This document shows, piece by piece, positions 8,512-59,799 of a stretch of DNA of 64,000 bases (the first letter of the stretch is position 1; every line of letters starts with the position of its first letter). A program made the translations under genes and the position numbers. Source of the stretch: Cliona cf. orientalis (Eukaryota; Porifera; Demospongiae; Clionaida; Clionaidae); assembly GCA_963930775.1 (NCBI GenBank), contig OZ005691.1, forward strand, positions 5,949,000 through 6,012,999, written 5' to 3'. Under the pieces are notes generated by a model. It saw only the letters and a program-made list of their open reading frames with translations, was not told where the DNA came from and searched no databases.

Positions 8512-27821
<19,310 letters not shown>

Positions 27822-37129: not shown

Positions 37130-40100
37130 ACTGTTAGCTCACAGTAGCTATTAGCTATAATAATATGGCATGATTTTACACCATTACAATAGCTGTGGTG
37201 GCAACTGGTGTAAAATTGTCCCTTATAATTATAATAATATTATAGTGCAGAGGTAAGTTAGCTATAATGTGGGAGAAGTTTACACAAGTAAACCCCTTAA
37301 CGTTGATGCAATATTGACCAAGTGGTGTAAAATCCTCCCATATAGCTAATTATACTTGACACACACTAGCTATCAAACACTCAGGATTTTACACCAATTT
37401 TGCTGGTGTAAAATTATCCCTTATAAAGTTACTCTAGGTTATAGCTATTGGTGTAAAATCATCCCATGAGTTACTCTATAGCTGGGTTTTGCTGGTATAA
37501 ATTTGTCCCATGAGTTACTCTAGGCATAAAACCCTATTTACAAGACTGCCAAAGCAGTATCTTGCCATTGGCTAGTGATGGTGTCTAGGAGACTTAAAAG
37601 ACGTACATTGTAAATCACTCAAATGTTGGTTTTTATCCCCTCAAAAGGCCGTTTTGTTGTGAAAACTAGCTTAGCTAGCTACCATGTTTTGTTGGTAAGG
37701 CATAATTATGCATGCAGTCGTTGCCAGGCTCTCTTTTTCCCTCCCCCAAGAAAGCCTGGGGACGAGGCTAATCTCTAGCTCTATTACTAGCTTCTAGCGT
37801 ATGCTTTTCTGTGGGGTCATGGGTCACATTAGATTTTAGCGGTAATTCACACCAACCTTATAGCTAATATCAATATGTTCTGAAAAGAGGACACCTCAAT
37901 TATATTCCTCCACTAAAACTGAGTCTACTGTATAGCTATAGGCTATAGGCTGGACACAATACACATCTGTCTTAGACTCTATGCTAACTGCTTGCACTGT
38001 ACCACATTTCTTCCTAATTATTATTCAATACCCCTTACTGAATTATGCAAAATGGCTTCCCACTTTCAGCAAAGTTTATAATTATGTGATAAACAGGATT
38101 GTAGCTGGAATATATACAATTATATTGTGCCAAATTTTCTGAAGAAACTTCATTCATAGCTACAGCTTGTGTAACTGGAACATAAATCTGTTTACGGTTT
38201 GCATGTGGTTGACACAACCCACATATAACATAGCACCAGTCTCCATATTTGATAGTGTTTGATCTGGCTGCAATAACTGTTGCAGTGAACACTTGTGACA
38301 AAAAGGCTATAAATTGAAGTACATTCGCAGTAAAGATTTAAATAACGAATAGTTGATGAGATGCCTATGCTACATGAAGTATTGATCACTATATTGGCCT
38401 TACCTTGCTTGGTATGTGGTGAAAATGATATTGTGTTGATTTCTACAACATTGGACGTGGACCTCAACTTTACGGTAGCTGATGTATGTCAATACAAACG
38501 TCTTAGTAGACACCTGGTCTGCATTCAGAATGAGCAGGTATATTATATACGTGCTGGAATGTGCTTAACACGACAGTACAACAATTCTATTGTTTTTGGA
38601 ATGTGTCCATATTTCCCCAATGAGTATTCTTGGTGGAGATTTTCAGAGTACTATTCTCTTCCATCCAATAGTACTCCAATGGAGCACTCATACCTGACTT
38701 GTGGGCCATACAATAGGGAAGGTCTGCTGTGCAGTAAGTGTAAGCCTGGGTATGGCCCTGCTGTGTACTCCTTCAGTCTGATGTGTGCAGAGTGCAGTGA
38801 TAACGGTGTCGGATGGGCACTTTACTTGCTTCTAGTTCTCTTTCCAATCACTGTATTCTACATCATTGTCATCATATTCAACATCCGTGCCACAGCTCCT
38901 CCTTTCACTGCATTTGTGATGATGTGTCAGGTATTTAGCACTATCGATCGAGTGTGTGTGCCCGTAAAAATGGTATTACAGGAGATGAAATCTCTTTCAG
39001 TGTTGATTGATGTTGTTCGAGTGCTGTGTGGAATATGGAACTTGGATTTTTTTCGCTATTTAGTTCCACCATTCTGTATGAGTAGACATCTTGGCAATAT
39101 GCAAGCTCTGAGTCTTGAGTACCTTCACATCTTGTATCCCTTTTTATTAATACTTGTCACTTTGATATGCATTGAACTTCATGCCAGAAATTTTAAACTG
39201 ATAGTTTTGTTGTGGAAGCCATTTCACATGATTGTTACTCGTCTTAGAAGATCCTTGGATCCAAGAGCTTCAATCATCAATGCATTTTCAACATTTTTGC
39301 TCCTTGCCTTGTCAAAAAGCATTGTGATTACAAATTATAGTTTTGCAGTTACTTCCATACATGTACATTTTGGGGTTATGCATGAACATGTATATTATCC
39401 AGCATTCTTATACGCAGATCCAACTATCCACTTCCGTTCCAAGCAGCATCTTCCCTATTTGATAGGATCCATTTTACTCCTTGTTTTATTCTTTGCTTTT
39501 CCCACACTATTGCTCTGTCTCTATCCAACAAGGATCTTTAGAAAGTTGCTCTCCCATTGTCTGTCATTACGCTGGCAGCACGCAGTGAGTACATTCATTG
39601 ATACGTTTCAAGGCCACTATAAGGATGGAACTAACGGAACGCGAGACTACAGAGCAGTGTCCAGTATTCACCTTCTTGTCATATTTGTAGTAATAGTTGT
39701 GAGTTTTGGCCATCAAATGAAAATACATTTCCTAGAGTATATACAGCCAGGCTTTATGATTATATCACTTTTCTATGCCCTAGTTCGTCCCTGTAAGCAA
39801 GAGTATGCTAATGTGATACAAACCCTTTTTTATGCATTGATAGCTTTTGTGGTGTACGCAGTTTCTTCAGCTAAGTTTCATAAACACGCATTTCACAACT
39901 TTCTTATGATGTTGCTATGTTTGCTTACTCCCCACGCTGTTTTGTGTATCTATGCGATTTACAAGATCATCAGAAGGAGTGGATTTAATTTGTTGTTCCT
40001 ACGCAGAGTGTTATGCAAGCGTGGTTCAGTGCAAAGCTCAAAGGTGTGTCAACTACTATATTATGAGTCTTATCCAAATGAGCACTCTCAGCTGTTAAAC

Positions 40101-41500
40101 GCTGCTGAACAACCTAATTGCAAAGAATAATTATTGTCCATCAATAACGAAGTTGGCCATAGAGACGTTTTCTTGTTAAAGAAGCAGTTGGTCTTCCTAT
40201 TTTCTTATCCTTGTGTTTACTTTAAGTCATTATTGAATATTTATTATGTATTCTATAAACAGTAATTATTTGTGATCTCTCTTAATTCCGAACATGCTTG
40301 ATTTCACCTACTATTAATGAAATAAGTTTACATGAGAAATTTGACGGCCTTAGTTGATCTTATCTACATGTACAATATTTGCAACAAAATTCTTTACAAT
40401 TTCAAGTATCAACCTCAACAGTGGAGGTCTTCCTCCTCTGGCTATATATATTAGTGATAAGACTCTGTAAAAACAGTAGCTGTGTCATATTATAGTTTTA
40501 TATCGTTGCTTAAGTTTTATTCATCATTGGTCGGTTTAATGGTTATCACTCACAGTAGTGCATAAGCTTGTGATACCATAATAATTATGGTGCATAATTC
40601 TTGTGGGTACCACATTTGTGGGAAGTCAAATAAGCATAGGCACGGCAGAAGTAGGTTAGATAGCACCTCTCTCACCTCTCATCTCTAGCCTGTTTAACAC
40701 AGTAACATAATATTGGTGACTTTCCGACTTTTCAGACCCTTAATTACTCTCCTAGGTTGCTCAACTCATTCTACCCCTTTGTTGGTGATCAGAATTCTGA
40801 CATCTACACAAGTTCCCCTTAAAGTTTCCTTATCTTTGCAGCCAACTTAACCGAAACTAGGGTAAGTCCATCACCCAGGCATATTCAGGTATTTCAGCAA
40901 CCCCAGTGCTATTATAGAAGAATGTTAATTAGGGTGATATTCACACCCATTTCCACTACAGATACCCAGTTAGGTACGTGGATGTTCCATAATTGGATGA
41001 GATGTGTATGGGATTGCTGGTAGATTGTATTACCTATAGTAGCAGCTTAATCCTGAAATGCAGACACCTCATGCACTATTAGACACTTGGCCTCGACCCA
41101 ATAGTAGCTATATTGCTGCCCATGCAAATTGATCTCGTCTGTAGCAGATGCATTGGCAGTAGATTTGTAGACTCACTTGTTAAACAAACACCAAGAAGTA
41201 CTAGATGCTAGATAGAGCATTACAAGTGTGCTGAAATTCTGTTACTTGCTTCCATGTGACATTGCATGTTCAATTTTAGCGGTAACTCACACCCACATTG
41301 TATCAATAACCTCTTTAGTGTTAAAGGTGCATGAGCATAATCATGTGAATCCAAAGCCCCACTTAATCCACTTGCTTTCTCACTATATTTCATTGAGCAT
41401 ACCTGCTTATACATAGAGTTCATTGACGCTGTTGGTAGGTTCCCAATAATCGTCTTCTGAAAGAACACTTTGTTTCTCCATGCCTTTTTCATCTTCCTGT
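37130..41500. repeat. Segmental duplication, block 1
   Basis: This block (tandem 'ggtgtaaaatcgtcccatgagttactctagg' units at 37190-37540, upstream flank, multi-pass gene copy B, downstream flank) recurs as block 2. Block 2 runs from 44600 to 46282 and, beyond the large transposon, from 58562 to about 63420. Order and orientation are kept, with small indels and one local inversion. The sequence around 40140-41180 has no gene of its own. Confidence 0.85.
38361..40130 (+). CDS. Cysteine-rich multi-pass membrane protein, copy B (intact)
   Basis: 589 residues in one exon, the paralogue of copy A (20232-21992). It has the signal peptide (...LVCGENDIV), the Cys-rich block CGPYNREGLLCSKCKPGYGP, about eight membrane segments and the same polar tail ending near EHSQLLNAAEQPNCKE. 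N-terminal residues 1-110 and the loop after SFAVTS differ clearly from copy A. The part from CGPY to about residue 330 is almost identical, which suggests gene conversion. The same upstream sequence (roughly 'gcagtaaagatt') precedes A, B and the split copy, so a promoter may have been copied along. The function is not recognised. Confidence 0.85.
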   Translation: MPMLHEVLITILALPCLVCGENDIVLISTTLDVDLNFTVADVCQYKRLSRHLVCIQNEQVYYIRAGMCLTRQYNNSIVFGMCPYFPNEYSWWRFSEYYSLPSNSTPMEHSYLTCGPYNREGLLCSKCKPGYGPAVYSFSLMCAECSDNGVGWALYLLLVLFPITVFYIIVIIFNIRATAPPFTAFVMMCQVFSTIDRVCVPVKMVLQEMKSLSVLIDVVRVLCGIWNLDFFRYLVPPFCMSRHLGNMQALSLEYLHILYPFLLILVTLICIELHARNFKLIVLLWKPFHMIVTRLRRSLDPRASIINAFSTFLLLALSKSIVITNYSFAVTSIHVHFGVMHEHVYYPAFLYADPTIHFRSKQHLPYLIGSILLLVLFFAFPTLLLCLYPTRIFRKLLSHCLSLRWQHAVSTFIDTFQGHYKDGTNGTRDYRAVSSIHLLVIFVVIVVSFGHQMKIHFLEYIQPGFMIISLFYALVRPCKQEYANVIQTLFYALIAFVVYAVSSAKFHKHAFHNFLMMLLCLLTPHAVLCIYAIYKIIRRSGFNLLFLRRVLCKRGSVQSSKVCQLLYYESYPNEHSQLLNAAEQPNCKE

Positions 41501-45987: not shown

Positions 45988-46299
45988 ATGCCTATGCTAC
46001 ATGAAGTATTGATCACTATATTGGCCTTACCTTGCTTGGTATGTGCTGAAAATGATATTGTGTTGACTTCTACAACATTGGACGTGGATCTCACCTTCAC
46101 TGTAGCTGATGTATGTCAATACAAGCATCTTAGTATATAGACACCTGCTCTGCATTCAGAATGAGCAGGTATATTATATACGTGCTGGAACTTGCTTAAC
46201 AAGACAGTACAATTATTCTGTTGCTTTTGGAATGTGTCCACATTTCCCCAACGAGTATTTTTGGGTGAGATTTTCAGAGTACACAGGAAATGTTCTCTT

Positions 46300-48640
46300 T
46301 CTAGGAGTAAGATATTGTTAACTTCCATTAAGAATATCATTCTACATGGTGGTAGAGATGTACTTAAAACAAGTTACACTTTCCTTACTCAAGTAAGCGG
46401 TTTCTTCCATCTTTTATTCATGATTTGGCATAGAAAATGAGCTTCTAATAATAAGAAAACTGATTCCACATGAAAGAATGGGTTTGACTTTATCAAAGCA
46501 TCGTTTCTTGTTGTTAGAAGTACGTTATCAATTAAAGATTTAAGATCTAGATTCAAGCTAAGACTTCTGACGTAATTGGCTACTAGCAACATTTCTTGAA
46601 CTATTTGGTTAAGAAATTTACTCCTCATATTAAGTTATACTTCTTTAATTAAGTTCACACCATTGTACTTAGGTAATAATTTCTAGACCAAATAGTAAGC
46701 AGAACAACGGATTTCTTAAATTCAGAATGATAAACCTATTTTCAGAAATAATTCAAATTATCCAGTATGTCCATAGTCTTTCACGGAGATAAAGTATCTA
46801 AAATTAAGAAAACAAATCCGCATATAGGAAGTGGATCTAACCTGATTCCTTTCTGTAAGAAACCCTTTATCACTTAAAGATTTTGGCTCTAATATCAAGT
46901 AATGGTTTCTGTCAGTGGCATTCTTTTATAATCATTATCATACTAGTAGCAACATTTTTGTTTAAGATACTCACTCCTCAGTTTAAGCACTACTTCTTTC
47001 ATTAAGCTCACACTATGTGTTTGTATAAGCAATACTTTCTAGGCCCATAAGTATACATGTAATTAACAAGTAAAATAGGGTTCTTAAATTCAGAATGACA
47101 CACTTAGTAATACCTTTAGAAGTATTCCTTCTTATCATAATATTATATTATAATACAAGTAAAGTGCAAAGTACACGGTGAAGCATCGCAATCTTTTCTT
47201 GATGACGTGGCACCGTTCTACAATCTGATTGGACGCGGCCAATCTCACCGCGCGGAACCAAAATTGAATACGCGTTTCACCAGACTCTTTTTCCGCGTGC
47301 GATAAAGAGGCTGGGCACGAGACTAAAGTTCTCACTCCACTCGAACGTCGAATCTACCACCAGACCATGACAAAGAGCAGACATCGCCTCTCGCTTTGCT
47401 CGAGGCTCGGTGGCCTGCCGAGCAGGCCTGTCGAAACGCGCGGTGCTTGCGCCGCTCGCTCGAGCTCGAGAATGCATCTCTATGGCCCCTAGGCCTTGGC
47501 AACCTCGTTTGTGCACACGGCACAACAATTCTGACCAATCGTGAGTCTTCTGAACTTGTAGGAGAGCGCATCTTTTATGCCCTCCAGGTTAGGACACGGA
47601 CTATATAAGAAAATTGATCGTCTGAAAAATATTTTTCGTTGTATATATATAATTATGTCCATAATCCTTCATAGAAATACAGTTTCTATAATAAGAAAAA
47701 CAAATCTACACAAAGGAATCCCGATTTCTTGCTATAAGAAACCTATATTAATAATAATATTATTATCACTAATGTTTTCTGTCAGTGGCATCATTATAAC
47801 TATCATACCAGTATATTATACTATATAGCAATATTGTTCTTGATTAAGAAACTCACTCCTCAGTTTTAGTGGTACCTCTTTTATTAAGCTCACCTTATCA
47901 CTTTGTATAAGCAATATTTTCTAAGCCCATATTATTATGTGTAACTGTTATAGAGTTCTTAAATTCAGAATGACAAACTCATCTTCAGAAGTATTCAATC
48001 TTATATCATGTCCATAAATTTCTTCTTCAAAGAAATACAGTTTCTAATAATAGGAAAATCAAATCCACATATTAAAGACTTTTGCTCTAATATCAAGTAA
48101 TATTTTCTGTCAATGGCATCCTTTTATACTCATTATCATACTAGTAGCAATCACTCCTCAGTTTAAGTATACTACTTTTTTAATTATAAGCTCACCCTAT
48201 GTCCCTTTGCAAGCAATACTTTCTAGGCCCATAATTACATGCAATTACCAAGTAATAGGGTTCTTAAATTCAGAAGGACAAACTTATCTTTAGAAGTATT
48301 CCGTCTTATCATATTAGGTCCATAATCCTTCATAGAAATGCAGTTCTAAAATAAGAAAACAAATCCATATCAAGGAATTCTTATTTCTTGCTATAAGAAA
48401 TCTATTATTATCACGTAAAGAGTTGGGCTCTAATATCAAGTAATGTTTTCTGTTATCATATAACTGCTAGCAAAATGTTCTTCATTTAGAAATTTATTCC
48501 TCAGATTAAGTCATGCAAACTTCTTTATTAAGCTCACATATTATGTACCATAATAATATCACTCTGTAAGTATAATATTTTCTAGCCCCATATCAATAAA
48601 AAATATTGCAAGATTCTCAAGTTAAACAAGGTCCTGTAAT
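46300..48640. repeat. Left subterminal repeat array of the large transposon
   Basis: Diverged units of roughly 350-450 bp share words such as 'aagaaaacaaatcca', 'ctctaatatcaagtaat', 'ttctgtcagtggcat', 'agcaatactttctaggccc' and 'gttcttaaattcagaatgaca'. About five units are seen, interrupted by repeat R at 47330. No gene. Confidence 0.8.
47330..47650 (-). repeat. Interspersed repeat R, copy 3
   Basis: It has the same sequence family as 11700-12025 and 26519-26945, inserted in the transposon's subterminal array. Confidence 0.75.
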
Positions 48641-48782
48641 ATTATTTCTAATACAATTGATGGCCAGCATTCTTCTTTTCCGAATTGTATAAAACTGATA
48701 TGGCTATACAATATTATAATACAGGTGCATGCATGCATAATATAATGCATTATCATAATATTATGTGTCCTAAATATGTCAA

Positions 48783-51700
48783 TTAGTCAACTAACAATGG
48801 ATATAGATCAATTCGAGGCTTGATCAGCAACTTCACTGAGGTCGTCTTTGTAGTTGTTAGTGGTTCATGAAAAAGGAGAGATGATGGATGTACAAAGGTG
48901 ACAGATGATGCCATGTTAACTACTTCATAAGCTCTACAGTTCTCTGAATATCCTAAAATATTGAGTACATGTACAGCTAAATAGGCAGTGCCACCCACTA
49001 GAAGTATGTCAAGCACTTCAGCATACACAGGGTGATACAAACTAGATACATCTTTCCTTTTTCCAATAACCAGGTAGCATCCTGAGCGATACCTTGTGCC
49101 ATGAATTTCTATCGATGAGCATCTTCAGTATATAGAGAATGTCATAATTAATCCTATCTAATCCACATGACATGGTATATATACCTGTAGATTTGCTTGC
49201 TTAGCTCATTGTGTGTGAAACTGACATTCAAATCTGCTGCATATGTAATGTTACTCAAGCTGACTGGTTTCACACCTGTCATAATTGTATAATGATGTTA
49301 AGCTAACAATGTTAAGAATTTAAGCTACCTTGATGTTCAATCGCACAGGAGCTATTGAATGTCACACTTGAAGATAATGCATAAGAGGCACATTGTTGAT
49401 GGTGTACTGCAAGTGTCCAACACAAAGCTTTGTAGCTCATTGTTTGTGCCCACCTTTTGAATTGCCTATGCTTCCCCTCCATTCTCATACACCAGTGGCG
49501 AACAGGTGGCCCCATTCTAATTAACATAATAATTAGTATGTCATAACAGGTAATAATCAAGGCTTGCATAATATGGATTACCTGATAATACTGCGAGGGA
49601 TGTGCACAAGATAATGGAATTTTGGTGTTAATCTCTTCCTATAGAGCAACAAAAATGTCATTAGATACTGCTCTATTGTGAACTGCAGATGAGGATCGAA
49701 TTTGCTCTTTGACAAGCAACGGAGAGAGCAACATGGCAACAATATCATGAAGCATCAAAAAGCATTCATAATGCTCTGGGTGAGATTCATGGACTATATC
49801 TCCGATAATCAATGGAAGAATGTGCAACAGACATCTCATTTGTGAGGCTGCACAACAATAAGAAGAAAATTGAAAGCATAATGTTATATACATGCATCAT
49901 CAAGGCAATGCCATCTAGTATTACAGCTGTTTATGTATATTTTAATTCAACTGCAATACATTTTGAGAATACGTACCTGTTTGCTTTCCCGTTAGATCTT
50001 CATCGTCGATATGATCTCTTACCAAGTGACTTGGCTTAGCAGCACTTTCAAAATAGGAATAATTGAATGACTTCACCTTGTGGTTGAAGGCTTCAACAGA
50101 TAGAGCTGGATTGTTGATCAAAATTTCTTTCAAGAACAGTCCTAGGTGTGCAGGAGCAACTCCTTCTAGCAGTACATGCATAATATCCTCAGGAAGTTGT
50201 TCTGTAATATCAAATCCCTCTGTATCTGAAATCATGCTCTCTCTATTTATTCCGTAAGTTACTGAATAGTGTTGTCGCTCTGCATTGGTTATGATCGGAT
50301 CCATCACTCGTTTACATTGTTGAGTGTATGCTTCTTTAGTACGAAGGAAGAATTCCCCCTCTCTGAACTGTGTGCATGCATATCATACTATTTATTACAT
50401 ATTATAATAATATATTATATATACCTTCTCTTGAATCTGCTCAAATGTAGCCATACAGTGTCGGCATTTTCTGTAAGCAAATCCAACTCCTTCCTTGAAT
50501 CCACCAACTCTGTGAACTGCTGGTGTATCACCCGTGAATGCAAGCAGTGCCCCTTGATAATTCTTCACAGAACCATTGATGTTAAAAGGATAACCACCAG
50601 GCTAAAGAATGAATAACATAATAATTGCTATAGCCACAATTAATGCAATAATAATAATTATTTATGAGACTCATGCATACTAGCTTGAGAAAGCTTTTTT
50701 AGATCATCAAAAAATGGGGTCAATATGTCATCAATCGTATATTGGCTGAACAGATCACACTCAAAGAGTGCTACCAAGTGGACGGCATCAAGTTTTGATC
50801 GCTGAGCAGGATCAATGTTGGCAATTGTGAAATACACTGCTCCTGCATGCATAAAAATACTTACATTATGTATACAGCTACCATCACAATAACAATATTA
50901 AATTTTACCTATTTTATTCTTTTTAGCTTTACTTCCCAATGGATTTGCTAATTCCACCTCATCATAGTATGCCACAATTTGTAGCGCATTAGGATTTGCA
51001 CTAAATATGACATGTTCTCTAAAGACTTCTCCGTCACACAGGTCTCCAAGCATTGGGCATGTCAGCTGATGTGGTCCTGAATCAATCTATAATAATGTGA
51101 TCTTGGTGTACATAATAAATTTTAGGCACATTAATGTTATGCACCTGTGCTCGAATGTGATCATTTTGAAGAATGAACTCCAAATTCTTCAGCAGAGGGA
51201 CGTATACAATCTGATCTGGCACATTGTCTAGAGTATTATTGCCGATGTGTGTTCCCAATGTTACCCTAATTGGATCCTAGATAAAACAAAAAACAAAATT
51301 ATCTACTATTATAATTATATAGTAGCACAATTAAATCTGCAACTTACACATGTGGGAAAATTCAACTTCATTCTTGCATTTATTGAATAGGATGTACTAA
51401 GACAATCAAGTGAATTTGCATGCTCGTTAAGCTTAGACACAATGGTTGTTGGGTCTGTACTTTCCACTTCTTGTATATCACTTGTTGCATTCATAATGAT
51501 CCCCCTGACTAGTGCTTGATTCATTTCCACAACTTCTTTGAGAAGGCTTTCTGTTACACCAGGTCTTTGTTTGAGCTTTAACAGATGTTCTGTAGCAACT
51601 CTAGTGACGTCCACTCTTGGTGATGTGGATGTGGCTGTAGTGAAATCAATGGTATCTGGGGCCGCTGTACCCAGTTCATCATCACAATCAGATGTAAATG

Positions 51701-52023
51701 GAGTACATTCTGGATCTGGTTCAGATGGGTCATGACTTGATTCCATCTCTGGATCATGATTTTTTTGTGATACTGCCACCACGATACAGTTCTGCATGGC
51801 TACTCCTAACGTGCTTATAGAAAGTGGCAGTGGAACGAAATGTTATTTTGCAATTGTTTATGCCACATTCAAATGAATTCCGACAGTTAGAATGGGAAGC
51901 TCGTATATGTCCAACCAGTACAGGTAGATGTGTAAAAATCGCATGGTATACAGTGCACTTCCAGGAATTCTTTAGTTGGCACGCCATCGAATCTGCGCAT
52001 GCGTACTTCGTAACCGCGCCCAC
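48783..52023 (-). CDS. Zinc-finger transposase-like protein of the 12.3-kb element, multi-exon, partly broken
   Basis: Probable exons, in transcription order: 52023-51348, 51276-51145, 51086-50909, 50842 to about 50690, about 50600-50425, 50367-49977, about 49845-49585, about 49523-49330, about 49277-49190, and a last exon ending 48783. The N-terminus has a C2H2 finger (C-x4-C-x12-H-x4-H) preceded by a finger-like stretch lacking one cysteine. Later blocks include FREHVIFSANPNALQIVAYY, NPLGSKAKKNKIGAVYFT, CRHCMATFEQIQEKFREGEF, DIMHVLLEGVAPAHL and HWCMRMEGKHRQFKRW. I remember these as a widespread 'uncharacterized' animal protein family of transposon origin, resembling CMC-type transposases. 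Two faults suggest inactivity: a frame change at an A7 run (T run at 51760-51766) and another near 49700. The exon ending near 50690 also lacks a clean donor. Confidence 0.75.
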
Positions 52024-53666
52024 ATAGATCGAATGTCACATGCACAGCGCAGCTGCAGCTGCCGTCAATTAAGGTACCATTAAATTGCGTGGGCGTGAGG
52101 TGGGGGATATGACACCTAAACCACATCAAAGTCATTAGTGAGGTGCATGTTGTGTAACCACGCCCTTTTAATTGCACAGGTCTCAGGGGTGTGGCTGCTA
52201 GAGCCGGAAGTGTTCATTTAATATCCTCCATGGACCGGAAGCCGAGCCGGAAGGGAGGGGCCAGGCCACGCCCAAAACAGCCCCACCCTGTTCCCCAAGG
52301 ACCACCATTCTCAATCAAGTGCCTACTAACCACCGGATGTCCACCGGAAGCCCACAATCAATCCCAATTAAAACACACAGCTTCCTCAAGGCCAAAACAC
52401 ACACAAACACTTGGAGGCCGTTCTGCCACACCGCCCACGCAAGAGCTCACCTCATTTCCTGTGTGGGCGGAGTAACAACACGTCATCGCAACCACATCCG
52501 CTTCAAACCATCGTCAGCTTCCGTCCAGCCGTACAGGCCCCTCGATCGCACCGCCGTACAGTGCCTCATTAACAGACATGGCCTCACCTTTGACCTCCTG
52601 CCACGCCCCCAAAGCCTCCTCGCGGGGTTCAAAGGTCACCACCGCTTCCGGGACACGCCCACCTATCGCCGAGGCCAAGTCCCAGGCGCCGATATCCAAG
52701 CACTGGCCCGTGAAGCCACGCCCAATCGGAAGCAATAAAACCTGCATTAACGCACACGCACACACTCCACACAGTGCCAGGAACACGCCCACACGCTTAA
52801 TTAGGCCTAATAAGCTTTTTTTTTTTTTTTTTCAAGGAGACCAGAACACTAAGCAGAAAAAAAAAAAAAACTGTCCAAAACCACCACATAGTTGAGCTGG
52901 ATGCTTAGTAGAGCCATACAATGCAAGCAGGCACCCTATACTTCAATTTTGACCAAAGTAGGTAAAGGTCGTCACGTTTGTGTGCGCGTGCCTAACGGGG
53001 ATTCCCCGTTTTTCACGTAGCGCGTGGGCGGAAAACATTGCAAACTCATGGCTTCCCTATACAAACATATGGGAAAACTTCAAAGGGCCGTAACTTTAAT
53101 TCTAAAGTGTGAATCAAAATTCCCTGCCATCAAAATTCTAGTTTTGACTCATTCTGCATGCTCATGTAAAAATTATCCCCCCAAGTACTCCCAAACCTCC
53201 CATGAATTAGATTATTTAATTATTTAATTATGCTTTTTTTTTCTACTTAGTGTTTAATTTAAGTCGTTGCGGTTAATAGTTAAGAAAGAATGCTTTGATC
53301 TTGCTTTGATGTGGGCAATTACCGGCCTTTTCTTCAGGGGCCACTTCCGGTCGCTAATTACACGCGCATAATCATCCCTGGCCGATTCTGGACACGCCCA
53401 CCTTCGACCAAAAGCACTCGTATGGCCTCTTCGGCCACGCCCCCTCACGATTCGCTAATTGAATTAGCCATTCCTGACGCTCACGCCCACGCAATTAAAT
53501 GGTACCTTAACTGCTTCAAGAATCTCTTTGAGAGAGCTCGAGAAGAGTACGAGTGGAGTTATCTAGCTACAGCTGCTTGCCGTGACTTCCAAATCTCTTT
53601 TGATTGTACAACTCCCGACAGAGTCCACGACTAAGGCGAGGATATCACACGGTGAACCTATAGACA
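52024..53666. promoter_or_regulatory. Central divergent promoter region of the large transposon, occupied by a MITE
   Basis: The two transposon genes start at 52023 (minus) and 53667 (plus). After removing the TTAA element only about 210 bp remain (52024-52072 and 53507-53666), so the original element had a compact bidirectional promoter. Core elements are not recognisable by eye. Confidence 0.5.
52073..53506. mobile_element. TTAA-flanked MITE, copy 2
   Basis: It is nearly identical to 1264-2270 over both halves and flanked by TTAA (52069-52072, 53507-53510). It differs by about 430 extra bp at the poly-T (about 52833-53264). The extra piece has inverted ends, AACACTAAGCAGAAAAAA and TTTTTTCTACTTAGTGTTT, and may be a further insertion. 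Confidence 0.9.
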
Positions 53667-56600
53667 ATGATGGAACAAGGTGTGTTAGCTTTGAGGCATG
53701 ATATTGTAGCTACACGAAACCTATCATTCGGTACGTATAAGCCTTACAGTAATTCTTTGTGACATAATTATAATCTTCAGTTAGCTTAGTAATATCAAGT
53801 AACTCTATACTTCAGGCAGGCCTAGCCATCTTAGTCCTCCATATCTAATCATTAAAGTATAGAGACAAAGTATTTCTTCCCCATTGGAATCCAAGAATGA
53901 GGTATAATATTTATTTGAAGGATACCATCTGTAAAGTTAGCTATAACCCTATAATCATGCAGTGTGATTGCTTTAAGTGCCGTACATCAGGCAAACTCAC
54001 CTTGGTTTTATATTTCTATACTGAATAAGCCACAAACTAAGCAAGTTATAAATTTATGCGTGATAGTTTTATACATACACTCAAGAATGCCGGCCGGGGG
54101 AGGGGGGTGCATAGTCATAAAGGTGCCGTGTAGATAGATCGTAAACAATTTGATTGTATTGTCCCTAATTATCATGCAGATAATGTTAATTGGGCTTAGT
54201 CTTATCAGATAATGCACACTTGTGTTCTATGTATGCATGATAGTAGCTATACTTAGTCTCGCCAAGCCGGACCCTTACGTGGGAGAAGAGGTTCTGGTGA
54301 TTTGCTATACACTGAGTTGTTGCATTACAATATACAGACTGTTTTATGTGACGTCACATTAAATTTAGCTATATTGCGTAGCACACGTTTGCCTATCATT
54401 ACAAATGGTGCCTGATATAGCAAACCACCAGATGCAGTGCAAGAGTCTGCATGATATAGGACCTGGTACATGTACTATTTTATGCTAAAACATTTCAGAT
54501 TTAAGGGACAGTCCTACAATTATCTTATTCATGAATCAGTAGCTATGCATAGTTTATGGTTTGTGCTAACCACTAAATTTTAGTAGCAAAAAAATTTTTG
54601 GGATTTAGACCACTTGGATTTCCTGCTAGCATAGCTAAAAATCATGCTTTATACAGGATCTGGAGAGCCAACCTTTCAGGAAGATATGACTTCTGAGCAA
54701 CTTGTTGATCATCTTGAGGATGTCTTTCCTAATTATGACTTTTCAGCAATTGATAGTAAGTTTATTGTTCTTACAACATTCATACCATACTTAAATATTT
54801 GTAATTATTCATTTACAATGTGATGTCGATGGAAAGCGTTTGCTCCAGCTATCTAGAAATGACATCGCCATTCTTTTTCCGAAAGAGGATCAATTTGTGC
54901 TGGGCATGGATCTCTTTAAATACGTTGAAACACTACGAGCTGCGTTGCCAAAAGAAGGAGCTACTGTACCAAAACAGCGAGAAAATGGTACATCCAATCC
55001 ACAACAACCGAAGTCCTCAAGCTCAGGAAATGGTGTAGCCAAGCCTCAACAAATTGCATCACGAAAGCGTCCCAGTTCAAGTCTGCCATTCACCCTTCCT
55101 GTGTTTGAGCCTGATCTTGAGCAAGCGATTGAAAAAGATGCTTTTTACAACCCACAAAAGCGAGCCAAACTCATTCGAAAGGCATGTGAAGCCATGGCTG
55201 GATACTGCCGTGAGAATAACATCACACCAACCACGGATTTACGCGAGGAGTTAGCCAAAACATTGGTTTCAATGGCTCCCCGAAGTCTTTCTGATCCAAC
55301 TACTGGCAAGAGAGGAGAGTCTTCTGCTTATGTGAGTAGCTATAATTTATTTGGAGGCTATAGTATATATGCATATACATAGTACACAGCTTCAATAGAG
55401 ACTATGGCATTGTGAAACTGCACTCTTGGGGGAGGTAATAATGCTTACCGTACTCGCTCTAATTATCCGAACGGCCAAAAATAATTATTAATATCGCCAT
55501 TCGGTGTTAAATAGAAAGTAAATAAATTCAGGCAATGGTTTGTTCGAGTGTAAATAGAACGGATCCGGTGCAAATGGAGAAAGCACTATTATAGCGACGA
55601 AGAAACAGTAGTCGATGTCCAACTATAGCTTTATCGTTGTCAGCTCTAGAGTTCTCAGTATCGCTATGCTCTCAGGAGCGATCGCAAAATGATCGCCATC
55701 TGTGTCTGTGTTACCTTTCCGCTCTTATATGCTGTCCAAGATGTGGTAGCCACACTCTTTGATGAACGTGGAAGAGTTGTCTCGAGCTCCTGCCATGCCG
55801 TACCGCGTGGCCGTTCGGTTGATTTTAATAGAGCGGATGAGAAAACTTGAAATTCAAGATGTTCGACGAATTAGGAAGGAAATAAATTACTTAAACTTGC
55901 CGTTCGGGCTATTAGAATGTTCGAATAATTAGAGCGAGTACGGTATTCCCCTGAACTGCCATCAGTTCAATAGTAAATTAATCTGCAGCCCCTTATTTTC
56001 TCGTAATCGTATACCCCTCACCCCCTAACACTTATAATATTAATTTTTGTCATTGCATGCATCTCTATTCATTTGCATGCTATGGTGTTTTTAGGAGGGA
56101 TTGCAAACTCAAATCAACAAATGGTTCTATAATAATAGTTTCCAAGCCAGGGTTGCAACTGGCCTGGTGAAAAAAAGGAAGAAGACGGAGGGCACCGATG
56201 ATAATGGTGGTGAGGATACCATCTTGACAGAAGATGATGAATCCCTCGAGAGGCATTGCAAGGAGGTTGAAACTGAGTGCAAAAGGAAAAAGCCTGATTA
56301 CTCCAAGTGCTTCCGATTGTTGGCCCTCACCATTGGTCATAGACGAAAGTGGCTCATGACTCTAACACCTACAAATAGAGTTGCCCTAAACATTGGGAGA
56401 TTTAACTGTTTAAAGGATCCTGATATGGTAAAGATTATAGTAACAGTAATAATAGTTTCAATAATCATACAATAATACTACTAAATTTCAGCTTTACAAT
56501 GAATTTCTGAAAAGAGCAACAGGACGTACTCTTGAAAGGAAGGAACAAGCTCAAGAGGAGATACTTGAGAATGTCAGGAGGTTCAGCGATTCCACAATTC

Positions 56601-57650
56601 CAGCTATCATTGAGCTTGCAAAGAACTCGGGTAGCGGCTCTCCTAAAGGGGTGGGAAGTGGAGGTTAGTTCAATACATATACACGTACCTTAGAAAATAC
56701 CGTAGATCGGGATATGTTTGCTGGTAAAATATTTCACTTGTAAAATAGGTATAGGTCGACGTACGTTACATAAAATATTATTTTCGTCGGAAAAAGTCAT
56801 TGATAAAAACTATTTAACAGTAAAAATTTTGCGATCTACGGTAACTTAATAATATATAATAATATAGCATCATAGGATATTATGCTATTTATTTTTGCTT
56901 TGGTGCAGAAAAGTTAATGTTTGCATTGAAATACGCAATGACTCAGCTGAAGTGCTGTAAGAAAGACAAGGTGGGAGAGGCCATTAAAGAAGTGTTAGTC
57001 ATAGAAGAGGTACGTATGTTTGATTCAGTTGTCAATATAAACTTCCAGATACCAAAAAGAATTGTAATTTTTGCCAAAATCGTCACGGTGACCTGCTCTC
57101 ATATATACATGCATAGTAGCTATAGTTATAAATTATCAAGGTGACCTTTACTATACTATATATAGGCTTGTATTTTTCCAACAAATGTCCATGGTTGGGG
57201 TTGCAGTATAGCTAACCATGCATGCATTTAATCTATAAATATATAACTTATTATACACCCATTTTTTCCACATGCATGCAGGAACCTTGTGCTACAGAGT
57301 TATCCAAAACAATCACGTCACCTTTTTTGTGTGCCAACGGTGAACCAGATAAGGTCAAGCAAATGTCAGTGATAGGAGAAAAGAAAGTGATCTGCACTCT
57401 ACCCAAGAATTCCCCCCTATGCCAAGGCCTCATTGCTGTTGTATGCTGCTACTATTTGTACCAGTTTGAGTACCCAAAAAATACTTATCAACTCTATGTC
57501 TTCCTGGCTGATAAGCTTTGCAATGCCCCCCTCGAGAGGAAACCCACCACTGTTTATAAGAATTTTATTAGAAGTGTAGAGATGTTCGAGCGTGAAGACT
57601 CGCCTGTGGATGAAATGGAAGGTAGCAGTGACTATAATAATAATTGCTAA
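53667..57650 (+). CDS. SAM-domain-like accessory protein of the 12.3-kb element, seven exons
   Basis: Exons: 53667-53730, 54657-54755, about 54822-55331, 56095-56427, 56492-56663, 56909-57009, 57282-57650. An N-terminal SAM-like domain reads LVDHLEDVFPNYDFSAID, then DGKRLLQLSRNDI...FVLGMDLFKYV. A basic linker (SRKRPSSSLPF) and a conserved block, KRAKLIRKACEAMAGYC to QTQINKWFYNNSF, follow. I remember this block from proteins labelled 'sterile alpha motif domain-containing protein 3-like', which are abundant in animal genomes and probably transposon-encoded. Then come a helical region (CFRLLALTIGHRRKWL) and a C-terminal domain of unknown role. SAM domains mediate oligomerisation; a regulatory or DNA-end-assembly role for transposition is inferred. 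All borders are GT/AG except the start of exon 3 (about 54822), where no AG fits. That acceptor may be mutated or misread. Confidence 0.72.
55448..55943. mobile_element. MITE with CCGTACTCGCTCTAATTAT termini
   Basis: The left terminus CCGTACTCGCTCTAATTATC and the right terminus GATAATTAGAGCGAGTACGG type match with one or two differences and have TA on each side. It lies in intron 3 of the SAM-like gene. Confidence 0.88.
56699..56841. mobile_element. Short MITE with ACCGTAGATCG termini
   Basis: ACCGTAGATCG at the left and CGATCTACGGT at the right are bounded by T/A-rich flanks. It is similar in layout to 25538-25716. It lies in intron 5 of the SAM-like gene. Confidence 0.75.
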
Positions 57651-57659
57651 AACCAAATA

Positions 57660-58550
57660 GGAAGGACTACTAGTTATATTATAGTGTTCGGAAGTAATTT
57701 AATCTTATCAATAGCCTCATACATTCTTTACCGGTCTTTATTGAAAGAATAAGTAAATAAATATTATAATACTGGGAGCTAATAGGATAAATTTGTAAAT
57801 AAGGAAGTTGAATACTATAGAGAAAAGGCTAATTCTGTTACCAAGAACACTAAGCTACCTAACTTAACAGTTAAATCACTGCTGCATAGAAACAGCGTAG
57901 GAACCTAGTACCAAAGGGAAGTATTATTTTCTAGTAATAAGAAATAATCAGGCTTATAGCATACTTATGTTACACTTGAGTACTAATTGCTATGTTTTAA
58001 AAAACAATTGCTGTAAATCACACAAACTTTGAAGAATCATGCTTGTGCTCATCGTGAGCAGTTGGTGACTACTTTAAAGTACTATAGAATCTAGAGAGAA
58101 GAAAATAATGTCTTAAAAGGAGGACTATTTTACTAAATAGAACTGGATGTGTTAAAGAACAGGAATAACTAGTAAAGAGAAACAGCTTCTTTGCATGAGT
58201 ACACACATACTTGTAACCAGCAATTCGTGATCTTATGTCAGTTAGCCACTCTTTCACTTAAATGAAGAACTTCATCTTCTTATATAAAGCTATTTTCTCT
58301 AAATTTAAGAGACTGCTATTCTTGCATGTTCTGGCTACTCCTCTACTTAAATGAAGAAAGTGACTTCTGGAATACAGAAGAATTTGCTGGTTGAAAGAAA
58401 GTAGTATTCTTACATAATCTATACTTAAATAAAGAAATCTTATCTTAAATACAGCGATTTGTTTCTGTACGGAAGAAAATGAGATTCTTATGTCAGTTAG
58501 CCACTATTTTTCTTCAATAAAGTACATTTTACTTTTTCAAAGTAACGGAT
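57660..58550. repeat. Right subterminal region of the large transposon
   Basis: AT-rich sequence with repeated words ('cttaaatgaagaa', 'gtcagttagccact', 'aagaaa...ctgttacg') in clusters. It is looser than the left array and contains no gene. Confidence 0.55.
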
Positions 58551-59799
58551 TTTTTTCCTGTGTACTATTCTCTTCCATCCAATAGTACTGATGTAGTTCA
58601 AGTGCTGTGTGGAATATGGAACTTGGATTTCTTTCGCCATTTAGTTCCGCCATTCTGTGTGAGTAGACATCTTGGCAATATGCAAGCTCTGAGTCTTGAG
58701 TACCTTCATGCACATCTTGTATCCCTTTTTGCTAATTCTTGTCACTTTGATATGCATTGAACTTCATGCCAGAAATTTTAAACCAATAGTTTTGTTGTGG
58801 AAGCCATTGCATTTCACATGGTTGTTACTCGTCTTAGAAGATCGTTGGATCCAAGAGCTTCAATCATTAATACATTTTCAAGATTTTTGCTCCTTACCTT
58901 GTCAAAAAGCATTGTGATTACAAATTATAGTTTAGCAGTTACTCCCATAGATGTACATTTTGGGGATATGCATGAACATGTATATTACCCAGCATTCGTA
59001 TACGCAGATCCAACTATCCACTTCTGTTCCAAATAGCATCTTCCCTACTTGATAGGCTCCATTTTACTCCTCATTCTACTCTTTGCTTTTCCCACACTAC
59101 TTCTCTGTCTCTATCCAACAAGGATCTTTAGAAAGTTACTCTCCCATTGTCTATCATTACGCTGGCAGCACGCAGTGAGTGCATTCATTGATACATTTCA
59201 AGGCCACTATAAGGATGGAATAAAATTCAAATGGAACTTGAGACTACAGAGTAGCATCCAGTCTTCACCTTCTTGTCATATTTGTAGTAATCATTATGAG
59301 TTTTGGCCATCAAATGAAAACACATTTCCTTGAGTATATACAGCCAGACTTTACAATTATGTCACTTTTCTACGCCATAGTTCGTACCTGCTAGTAAGCA
59401 AGAGTATGCTAATGTGATACAAAGCCTTTTTTATGCATTGATAGCTCTTGTGGTGTATGCAGTTTCTTCAGCAAAGTTTCATAAACACACATTTCACAAC
59501 TTTCTCATGATGTTGCTATGTTTGCTTACTCCCCACGCTGTTTTATGTATCTATGCGATTTATAACACTGGCGTAAGAACCAGGGGGGCTGGGGGGGGGG
59601 AGGCAATTGCCCCCCCCCCAGTCATAAGATTGGGGGGGGGGGGGCAGAGCCCCTCTGATTTTAGACTGCTGTACAAGCCAGGGGGTGGGGCTCACCCTCT
59701 GAGGTTTGCACTTTTCTTTTTCATCTGTTGCCACAATCAGAGTTGAGTTATTCATGATTGTGGTGTATCTTAGCCCCACAGTGTGTAGATATCAATAAT

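Follow-up and report, generated by a model that had tools for sequence, protein, structure and literature searches.

Plant En/Spm elements, with their proteins TNPD and TNPA, have CAC...GTG ends, a short target-site duplication and repeat-rich, asymmetric subterminal regions, and combine a tnp2-type transposase with a second protein. TNPA binds the subterminal repeats, a soybean CACTA element makes a 3-bp duplication (PMC2613891), and both En/Spm proteins are produced from one alternatively spliced unit (PMC1636069). According to the accessible text of DeMarco 2006 (PMC1636069), animal CACTA elements with 2-bp duplications are already known: SmTRC1 encodes a Transposase_21 relative, and 7 of its 14 copies are flanked by a 2-bp duplication. 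It has CCC ends, a 54-bp inverted repeat and alternatively spliced transcripts of one element; that text reports no relatives of the second protein and mentions no SAM partner. Accessory genes are likewise already known from fungal elements of the CMCT clade (EnSpm, Plavaka, ESTA), which, in the accessible text of Kojima 2025 (PMC12730594), carry a C(2)C motif between the second D and the last E of the catalytic site and have mostly CA...TG ends and duplications of 2-5 bp; some hold an additional gene that does not encode a transposase. RAG1/RAG2 and BbRAGL (ProtoRAG) are two-gene units as well, and their complex includes a chromatin-reading fold. In the RAG complex this fold is the PHD of RAG2; the ends of RAG elements resemble CACTATG and are flanked by duplications of 5 bp.

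Here we analysed a 64,000-nucleotide stretch of DNA from Cliona cf. orientalis (the window), in which a mobile element interrupts a host gene (Table 1). We consider it about 85% probable that this is a DNA transposon of the CACTA/EnSpm type that moves by cut and paste and carries two spliced genes head-to-head, a figure that covers unit and class. The element shares its ends, subterminal layout and two-protein content with plant En/Spm but differs in having two divergent genes, a probable SAM protein, a 2-bp duplication and a predicted BAH-like C terminus. With SmTRC1 it has in common the Transposase_21 relationship in an animal and the 2-bp duplication. It resembles the CMCT clade in the C(2)C motif, ends, duplication range and extra gene, although in that clade the additional gene encodes a TET/JBP dioxygenase; the accessible main text of Kojima 2025 (PMC12730594) contains neither 'SAM' nor 'C2H2'. 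Unlike in RAG elements, the second protein is of SAM type rather than Kelch-PHD, and the reader-like barrel is predicted to be fused to the transposase. A literature search, which fell short of most subscription papers and of Repbase, turned up no published description of a SAM partner or of a BAH-like end.

Table 1. Features of the element in the window (positions are those of the window; exons of both genes were spliced by hand from open frames, without a transcript).
Feature	Position	Strand	Basis
Left (transposase-side) terminus, CACAGGAAA	46282..46290	+	sequence at site; same end at C1:28042311
Right (SAM-side) terminus, TTTCCTGTG on +	58554..58562	-	sequence at site; same end at C1:28052640
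Left target-site duplication, TA	46280..46281		flank comparison with paralogues; cf. TG at copy 2
Right target-site duplication, TA	58563..58564		flank comparison with paralogues
Left subterminal region with direct repeats (16-108 nt, several families), broken by nested insert	46429..48600		repeat search
Nested 494-bp insertion, absent from copy 2	47153..47646		alignment of copies
Transposase gene, about 10 exons, window copy broken	48783..51987	-	hand splicing of open frames; homology
Transposase exons 1-5	51987-51348, 51276-51145, 51086-50909, 50842-50684, 50601-50425	-	hand-spliced
Transposase exons 6-10	50367-49977, 49847-49582, 49516-49329, 49275-49185, 49122-48783	-	hand-spliced
C2H2-type fingers at N terminus; FECGINNCKITFRSTATFYKHVRSSH clear by eye, first finger degenerate	51780..51987	-	translation by eye
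Catalytic core, first-motif start to last-motif start	50184..50963	-	motif positions; sister alignment; sister's predicted RAG1 fold
Last exon, predicted BAH-like beta barrel	48783..49122	-	predicted
Nested 1438-bp insertion, TTAA duplication, GGTACCATTAAATTGCG inverted ends, absent from copy 2	52069..53506		alignment of copies
SAM-partner gene, start codon provisional	54656..57650	+	hand-spliced; relatives
SAM-partner exons	54656-54755, 54819-55331, 56095-56427, 56492-56663, 56909-57009, 57282-57650	+	hand-spliced
500-bp inverted-repeat insertion in SAM-gene intron	55446..55945		alignment of copies runs across it
Right subterminal direct repeats, TCTTATGTCAGTTAGCCACT-type (D7, D20)	58231..58525		repeat search

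The host copy is interrupted between RFSE and YYSLP. When the window flanks were fused with a single GTAC, they gave the sequence of uninterrupted paralogues at 38584-38675 (92% identity) and 20452-20543 (86%). The original prediction, which placed the element at 46283..58561 with a GTAC on either side, was therefore right about the insertion, as the paralogues run through the junction, and had to be corrected in its bounds: with the terminal C counted in at both ends the inserted DNA spans 46282-58562. GTAC is indeed present at 46279-46282 and at 58562-58565, but it is a palindrome around the TA duplication plus the element's own terminal C. A 4-bp duplication was rejected, as a second copy of the element (copy 2) shows TTGC / GTGG there; only 2 bp and a terminal C fit both the window and copy 2.

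Copy 2 is complete (C1:28042311-28052640) and identical to the window element at 10,186 of 10,289 aligned bases. Its flanks, fused with a single TG, match 118/118 bases at C1:23209102 and 99% at C1:25228662. Another locus with both genes and the same termini had been named as the test of the prediction; copy 2 has both, with the termini at the expected places, as well as an empty site. The 8-9-bp termini with their C, which belongs to the element, were likewise correctly called and recur there. Since the 494-bp and 1438-bp nested insertions are absent from copy 2 and mainly account for the 1,951 bp by which the window element is longer, the predicted size of 12.3 kb comes down to about 10.3 kb for the element proper.

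The head-to-head gene pair was also found in three relatives, at C1:25.24 Mb, C3:2.93 Mb and C5:9.78 Mb. Those at C1:25.24 Mb and C3:2.93 Mb are flanked by a TA duplication and carry CACTGGAAAAA termini, with 13 and 11 identical bases, respectively; end pairs of this quality occurred in 1/200 and 3/200 random sequences of like dinucleotide composition. When the two elements are compared, their ends match from the very first base onwards, with 80% identity along 145 bp at the SAM end and 72% along 133 bp at the transposase end, which independently confirms both boundaries. Termini were sought in the C5:9.78 Mb relative and none were found. All four elements whose ends were located (the window element and copy 2 belong to a single family) thus carry CACAGGAAA or CACTGGAAAAA termini of the CAC...GTG form and a 2-bp duplication (TA in the window, TG in copy 2, TA in both relatives), and empty sites were found for the window element and copy 2. 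That identical ends recur in another full-length copy, and that two relatives have ends of their own, confirms that the insertion is real and beyond chance. Beyond this genome, four partial metagenome or assembly proteins were matched.

CACAGGAAA is in excess genome-wide (2252 and 2232 sites, compared with 932 and 979 when the pattern is reversed). We rejected these sites as copies of the family because the window element's own end sequences were found at just two genomic places and because the four inverted pairs seen, ~365 bp apart, all have 3-bp duplications. A longer pairing in L065 (3373/5141) lacks a duplication, and L068 and L069 have no inverted pair.

The host gene has two intact paralogues in the window, open frames of 594 aa (38346-40127) and 601 aa (20187-21989), and judged by eye they encode a multi-pass membrane protein. 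Several paralogous copies lie within the window, and open-frame inspection showed the interrupted one to be a decayed paralogue in its own right.

The first gene of the element is a transposase, for which C2H2 fingers at the N terminus, an RNase-H DDE core resembling that of RAG1 and including C(2)C, and a BAH-like barrel at the C terminus are predicted. Two divergent spliced genes had been expected: the divergence holds in the window, copy 2 and the relatives, whereas the window transposase is not intact. Small frame-disrupting insertions lie in its finger exon and seventh exon, a further small insertion lies at a splice donor, and copy 2 is open at all three broken points. The window copy is defective and therefore says nothing for activity. 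In the window, the first D (DEVELANPLG) and the second D (GDTPA) are followed by CRHC, which places C(2)C between the second D and the E, and then by ExxxH and the E in EDIMHVLLEGV. In an alignment of 57 sisters D96, C214 and H284 are invariant and D190, C211, H280 and E288 are present in at least 90%. Of the H(3-4)H before the last E, the distal H occurs in 29/29 rows (one row being the query). The proximal H varies within the group, being E or Q in the SAM clade; it is Q in C1:6.68 Mb and L028, L in L016, L018 and L019, and F in L026 and L027.

The predicted fold of sister P0008 is an RNase-H DDE fold, surrounded by RAG1-like domains, that matches RAG1 over the core and HzTransib more weakly, so that the fold check proposed with the original prediction gave the expected core, in a sister rather than in the spliced window protein. 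P0008 shares 59% identity with L015, and L015 in turn shares 39% with the window protein along 166 residues. None of the BAH and C2H2 matches reaches the curated cut-off: zf-C2H2 models score 0.018-0.041 in the C1:25.24 Mb relative, and in L076, where fingers are visible by eye, the Pfam scan lists none.

In a core tree of 28 rows stitched from tblastn pieces, out of 81 transposase loci of this genome, the window element, copy 2, the C1:25, C3 and C5 relatives and L024 group with a support of 1.000. The window transposase matches sisters L015-L019 at 37-39% identity. Sisters L018 (29.7 bits) and P0120 (32.1 bits) exceed the 28.6-bit cut-off of the Pfam model Transposase_21, which represents the tnp2 family of En/Spm; L015 and five of the six sister P proteins scanned stay under the cut-off, P0001 has no match, and the window protein scanned against Pfam gave no PF02992 (Transposase_21) match. 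Its sole Pfam transposase match is Plavaka, under the cut-off (16.6 bits against 26.3; 0.0049). This match, together with TA in three of the four duplications, as named for ESTA in the accessible text of PMC12730594, could place the transposase in Plavaka or in the TA-duplicating ESTA group rather than in EnSpm proper. We regard this placement as unlikely, given the two sisters that pass Transposase_21 and the TG duplication of copy 2.

The second gene probably encodes a SAM-domain protein. The SAM-like region comprises its N-terminal 60-70 residues and is split by an intron. A partner profile searched against the PDB gave SAMD1, LCP2 and ERG as best matches (0.01-0.02), and among its 17 matches up to E 10 were twelve SAM or PNT proteins and five ribosomal proteins. 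Pfam SAM families scored 0.0022-0.27 in partner proteins, all under the cut-off (SAM_2 at 0.0022 in the L076 copy), and the L076 SAM region, searched as a single sequence against the PDB, gave no match to a SAM chain at E values under 0.3. Domain scans of the window protein and its relatives found no known domain and no enzyme domain in the rest of the protein; DUF6019 matched one of four members (7.2e-5). Four aligned partner proteins are 29-33% identical. They presumably resemble the 'SAMD3-like' proteins of fish and cnidarians.

Genome-wide, transposase matches clustered into 81 loci and partner matches into 50, the latter from 11/11, 5/27 (the others lay in loci already counted) and, with a more distant SAM query, 66/66 rows. 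Within 12 kb of a transposase locus lay 39 of the 50 partner loci, 38 of them divergent, one tandem and none convergent, where 0.52 chance neighbours were expected. By-eye grouping of near-identical copies reduced the 38 divergent loci to about 27 families. No transposase was nearby at 11/50 partner loci and no partner was detected at 42/81 transposase loci, some of which are fragments or distant 800-900-aa frames. The proposal that this locus ties both protein types into one mobile unit was thus borne out: the defined ends, 2-bp duplication, empty sites and family-wide linkage and orientation show a single unit.

As to the role of the SAM protein, we lean slightly towards a transposition helper, by analogy with TNPA. 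The transposase fingers would bind the 9-13-bp ends and its DDE site would cut, in a cut-and-paste reaction; the SAM protein would, like TNPA, bind the subterminal repeats, and SAM-SAM contacts would bring ends or transposase together. For the BAH-like barrel, a contact with histones or nucleosomes is possible. As predicted, the subterminal regions are repeat-rich, with direct repeats on both sides. In copy 2, the 8-10-mers exceeding random sequences are AT-rich and mostly on the left (transposase) side; neither the repeat search in the window nor the 8-10-mer comparison in copy 2 gave a clear motif shared by left and right.

Alternatively, the SAM protein could be an anti-silencing or chromatin-targeting factor without action at the ends, comparable with the TET/JBP genes of fungal transposons. 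Two chromatin proteins, SAMD1 and L3MBTL3, are among its SAM profile matches. Dioxygenase genes in EnSpm, Plavaka and ESTA elements have also been proposed to aid escape from silencing (Kojima 2025, PMC12730594, in its accessible text). The transposase, however, is already predicted to have a BAH-like barrel, and domain scans detected no enzyme domain in the SAM protein; such a role appears improbable to us. Still less likely is that an ancestral element picked up the SAM gene as cargo and has carried it passively, without a role in transposition: the 42 transposase loci at which no partner was detected would fit this, but the divergent placement recurs at 38 loci (about 27 families), with 29-33% identity among the four proteins aligned, and implies a long retention unexpected for cargo. 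That the genes are neighbours by chance or large tandem duplication, with coincidental ends, as the several host-gene copies in the window might suggest, is already refuted by the recurrence of the ends at a second place in the genome, with empty sites for both insertions, and by 38 divergent pairs among 39, on many contigs.

Two sets of uncharacterised proteins thereby become one mobile unit with defined ends, and these CACTA elements have a second protein retained genome-wide. A predicted RAG1-like core stands beside a putative chromatin-reader-like barrel and a probable SAM subunit, and the partner needs of a RAG1-type transposase become testable independently of RAG2. Tentatively, and with rather less confidence than in the helper role itself, animal CACTA/EnSpm elements might as a class be two-component machines, in which a RAG1-fold transposase with a fused BAH-like reader acts with an obligatory, separately encoded SAM subunit polymerising on subterminal repeats; the many 'SAMD3-like' genes of animals would then be helpers or domesticated descendants, and RAG1/RAG2 a parallel within the same fold. 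For annotation, caution is advisable, as such SAM genes may be transposon genes.

Two further candidates were dropped in the course of the analysis. A second accessory gene, suggested by a protein beside the C3 relative and inside L024, gave 143 matches that by eye are unlinked to these transposases. A partner-less clade of intron-less sisters was rejected when the more distant SAM query showed a partner gene beside them. At C1:30.67 Mb, a partner gene lies on the minus strand where the pairing pattern placed one (profile E 3.8e-10; 1.4e-5 among 100 frames); it had been missed by an earlier partner search.

The host copy interrupted by the two-gene transposon is a decayed member of a group of repeated single-frame genes of 594-601 aa, found uninterrupted at window positions 20187-21989 and 38346-40127. 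Judged by eye from their sequences, these genes would encode multi-pass membrane proteins. The window copy of the transposon (46282-58562) itself contains a nested insertion (Table). In an alignment with the second full copy (C1:28042311-28052640), 9 of the 34 length differences counted were exactly 4 bp.

A sister family is represented by three near-identical open transposase frames of 643 aa (C1:14.93, C7:6.39 and C5:3.60 Mb), each with a divergent partner match beside it, and this family may have been active recently. The short inverted-repeat elements (L064-L067) have the same CACAGGAAA tips as the two-gene transposon, yet their duplications are 3 bp long (ATA, GAA, ACT and TTT); perhaps they are moved by a sister CACTA family.

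SAM-partner genes were also detected on their own. No transposase of the two-gene transposon's family was found in the surroundings of the orphan gene in the stretches L062 and L063; between its matched parts lie open frames that, by eye, resemble hAT. At three other loci (Table), no transposase was found within 12 kb, and we regard these loci as candidates for host-adopted genes.

Location of nested, inverted-repeat and SAM-partner features (C1 and C4, contigs of the same genome)
Feature	Location	Size	Remarks
Nested element	window 52069-53506	1.4 kb	TTAA duplication, inverted GGTACCATTAAATTGCGTGGGCGTGAG ends
Inverted-repeat element	C1:1951958	~365 bp	among L064-L067
Inverted-repeat element	C1:2582736	~365 bp	among L064-L067
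Inverted-repeat element	C1:3296803	~365 bp	among L064-L067
Inverted-repeat element	C1:3457770	~365 bp	among L064-L067
Orphan SAM-partner gene	C1:28329816-28336409		L062, L063
SAM-partner locus	C4:4385418-4386815		parts within a 340-aa open frame
SAM-partner locus	C1:17846661-17850199		
SAM-partner locus	C1:24960357-24963091		

The open-frame protein at C3:2934502-2935314, which had 142 further matches in the genome, probably belongs to another mobile family. Its members carry an 'NPK' motif close to the start, and copies on different contigs are up to 100% identical.
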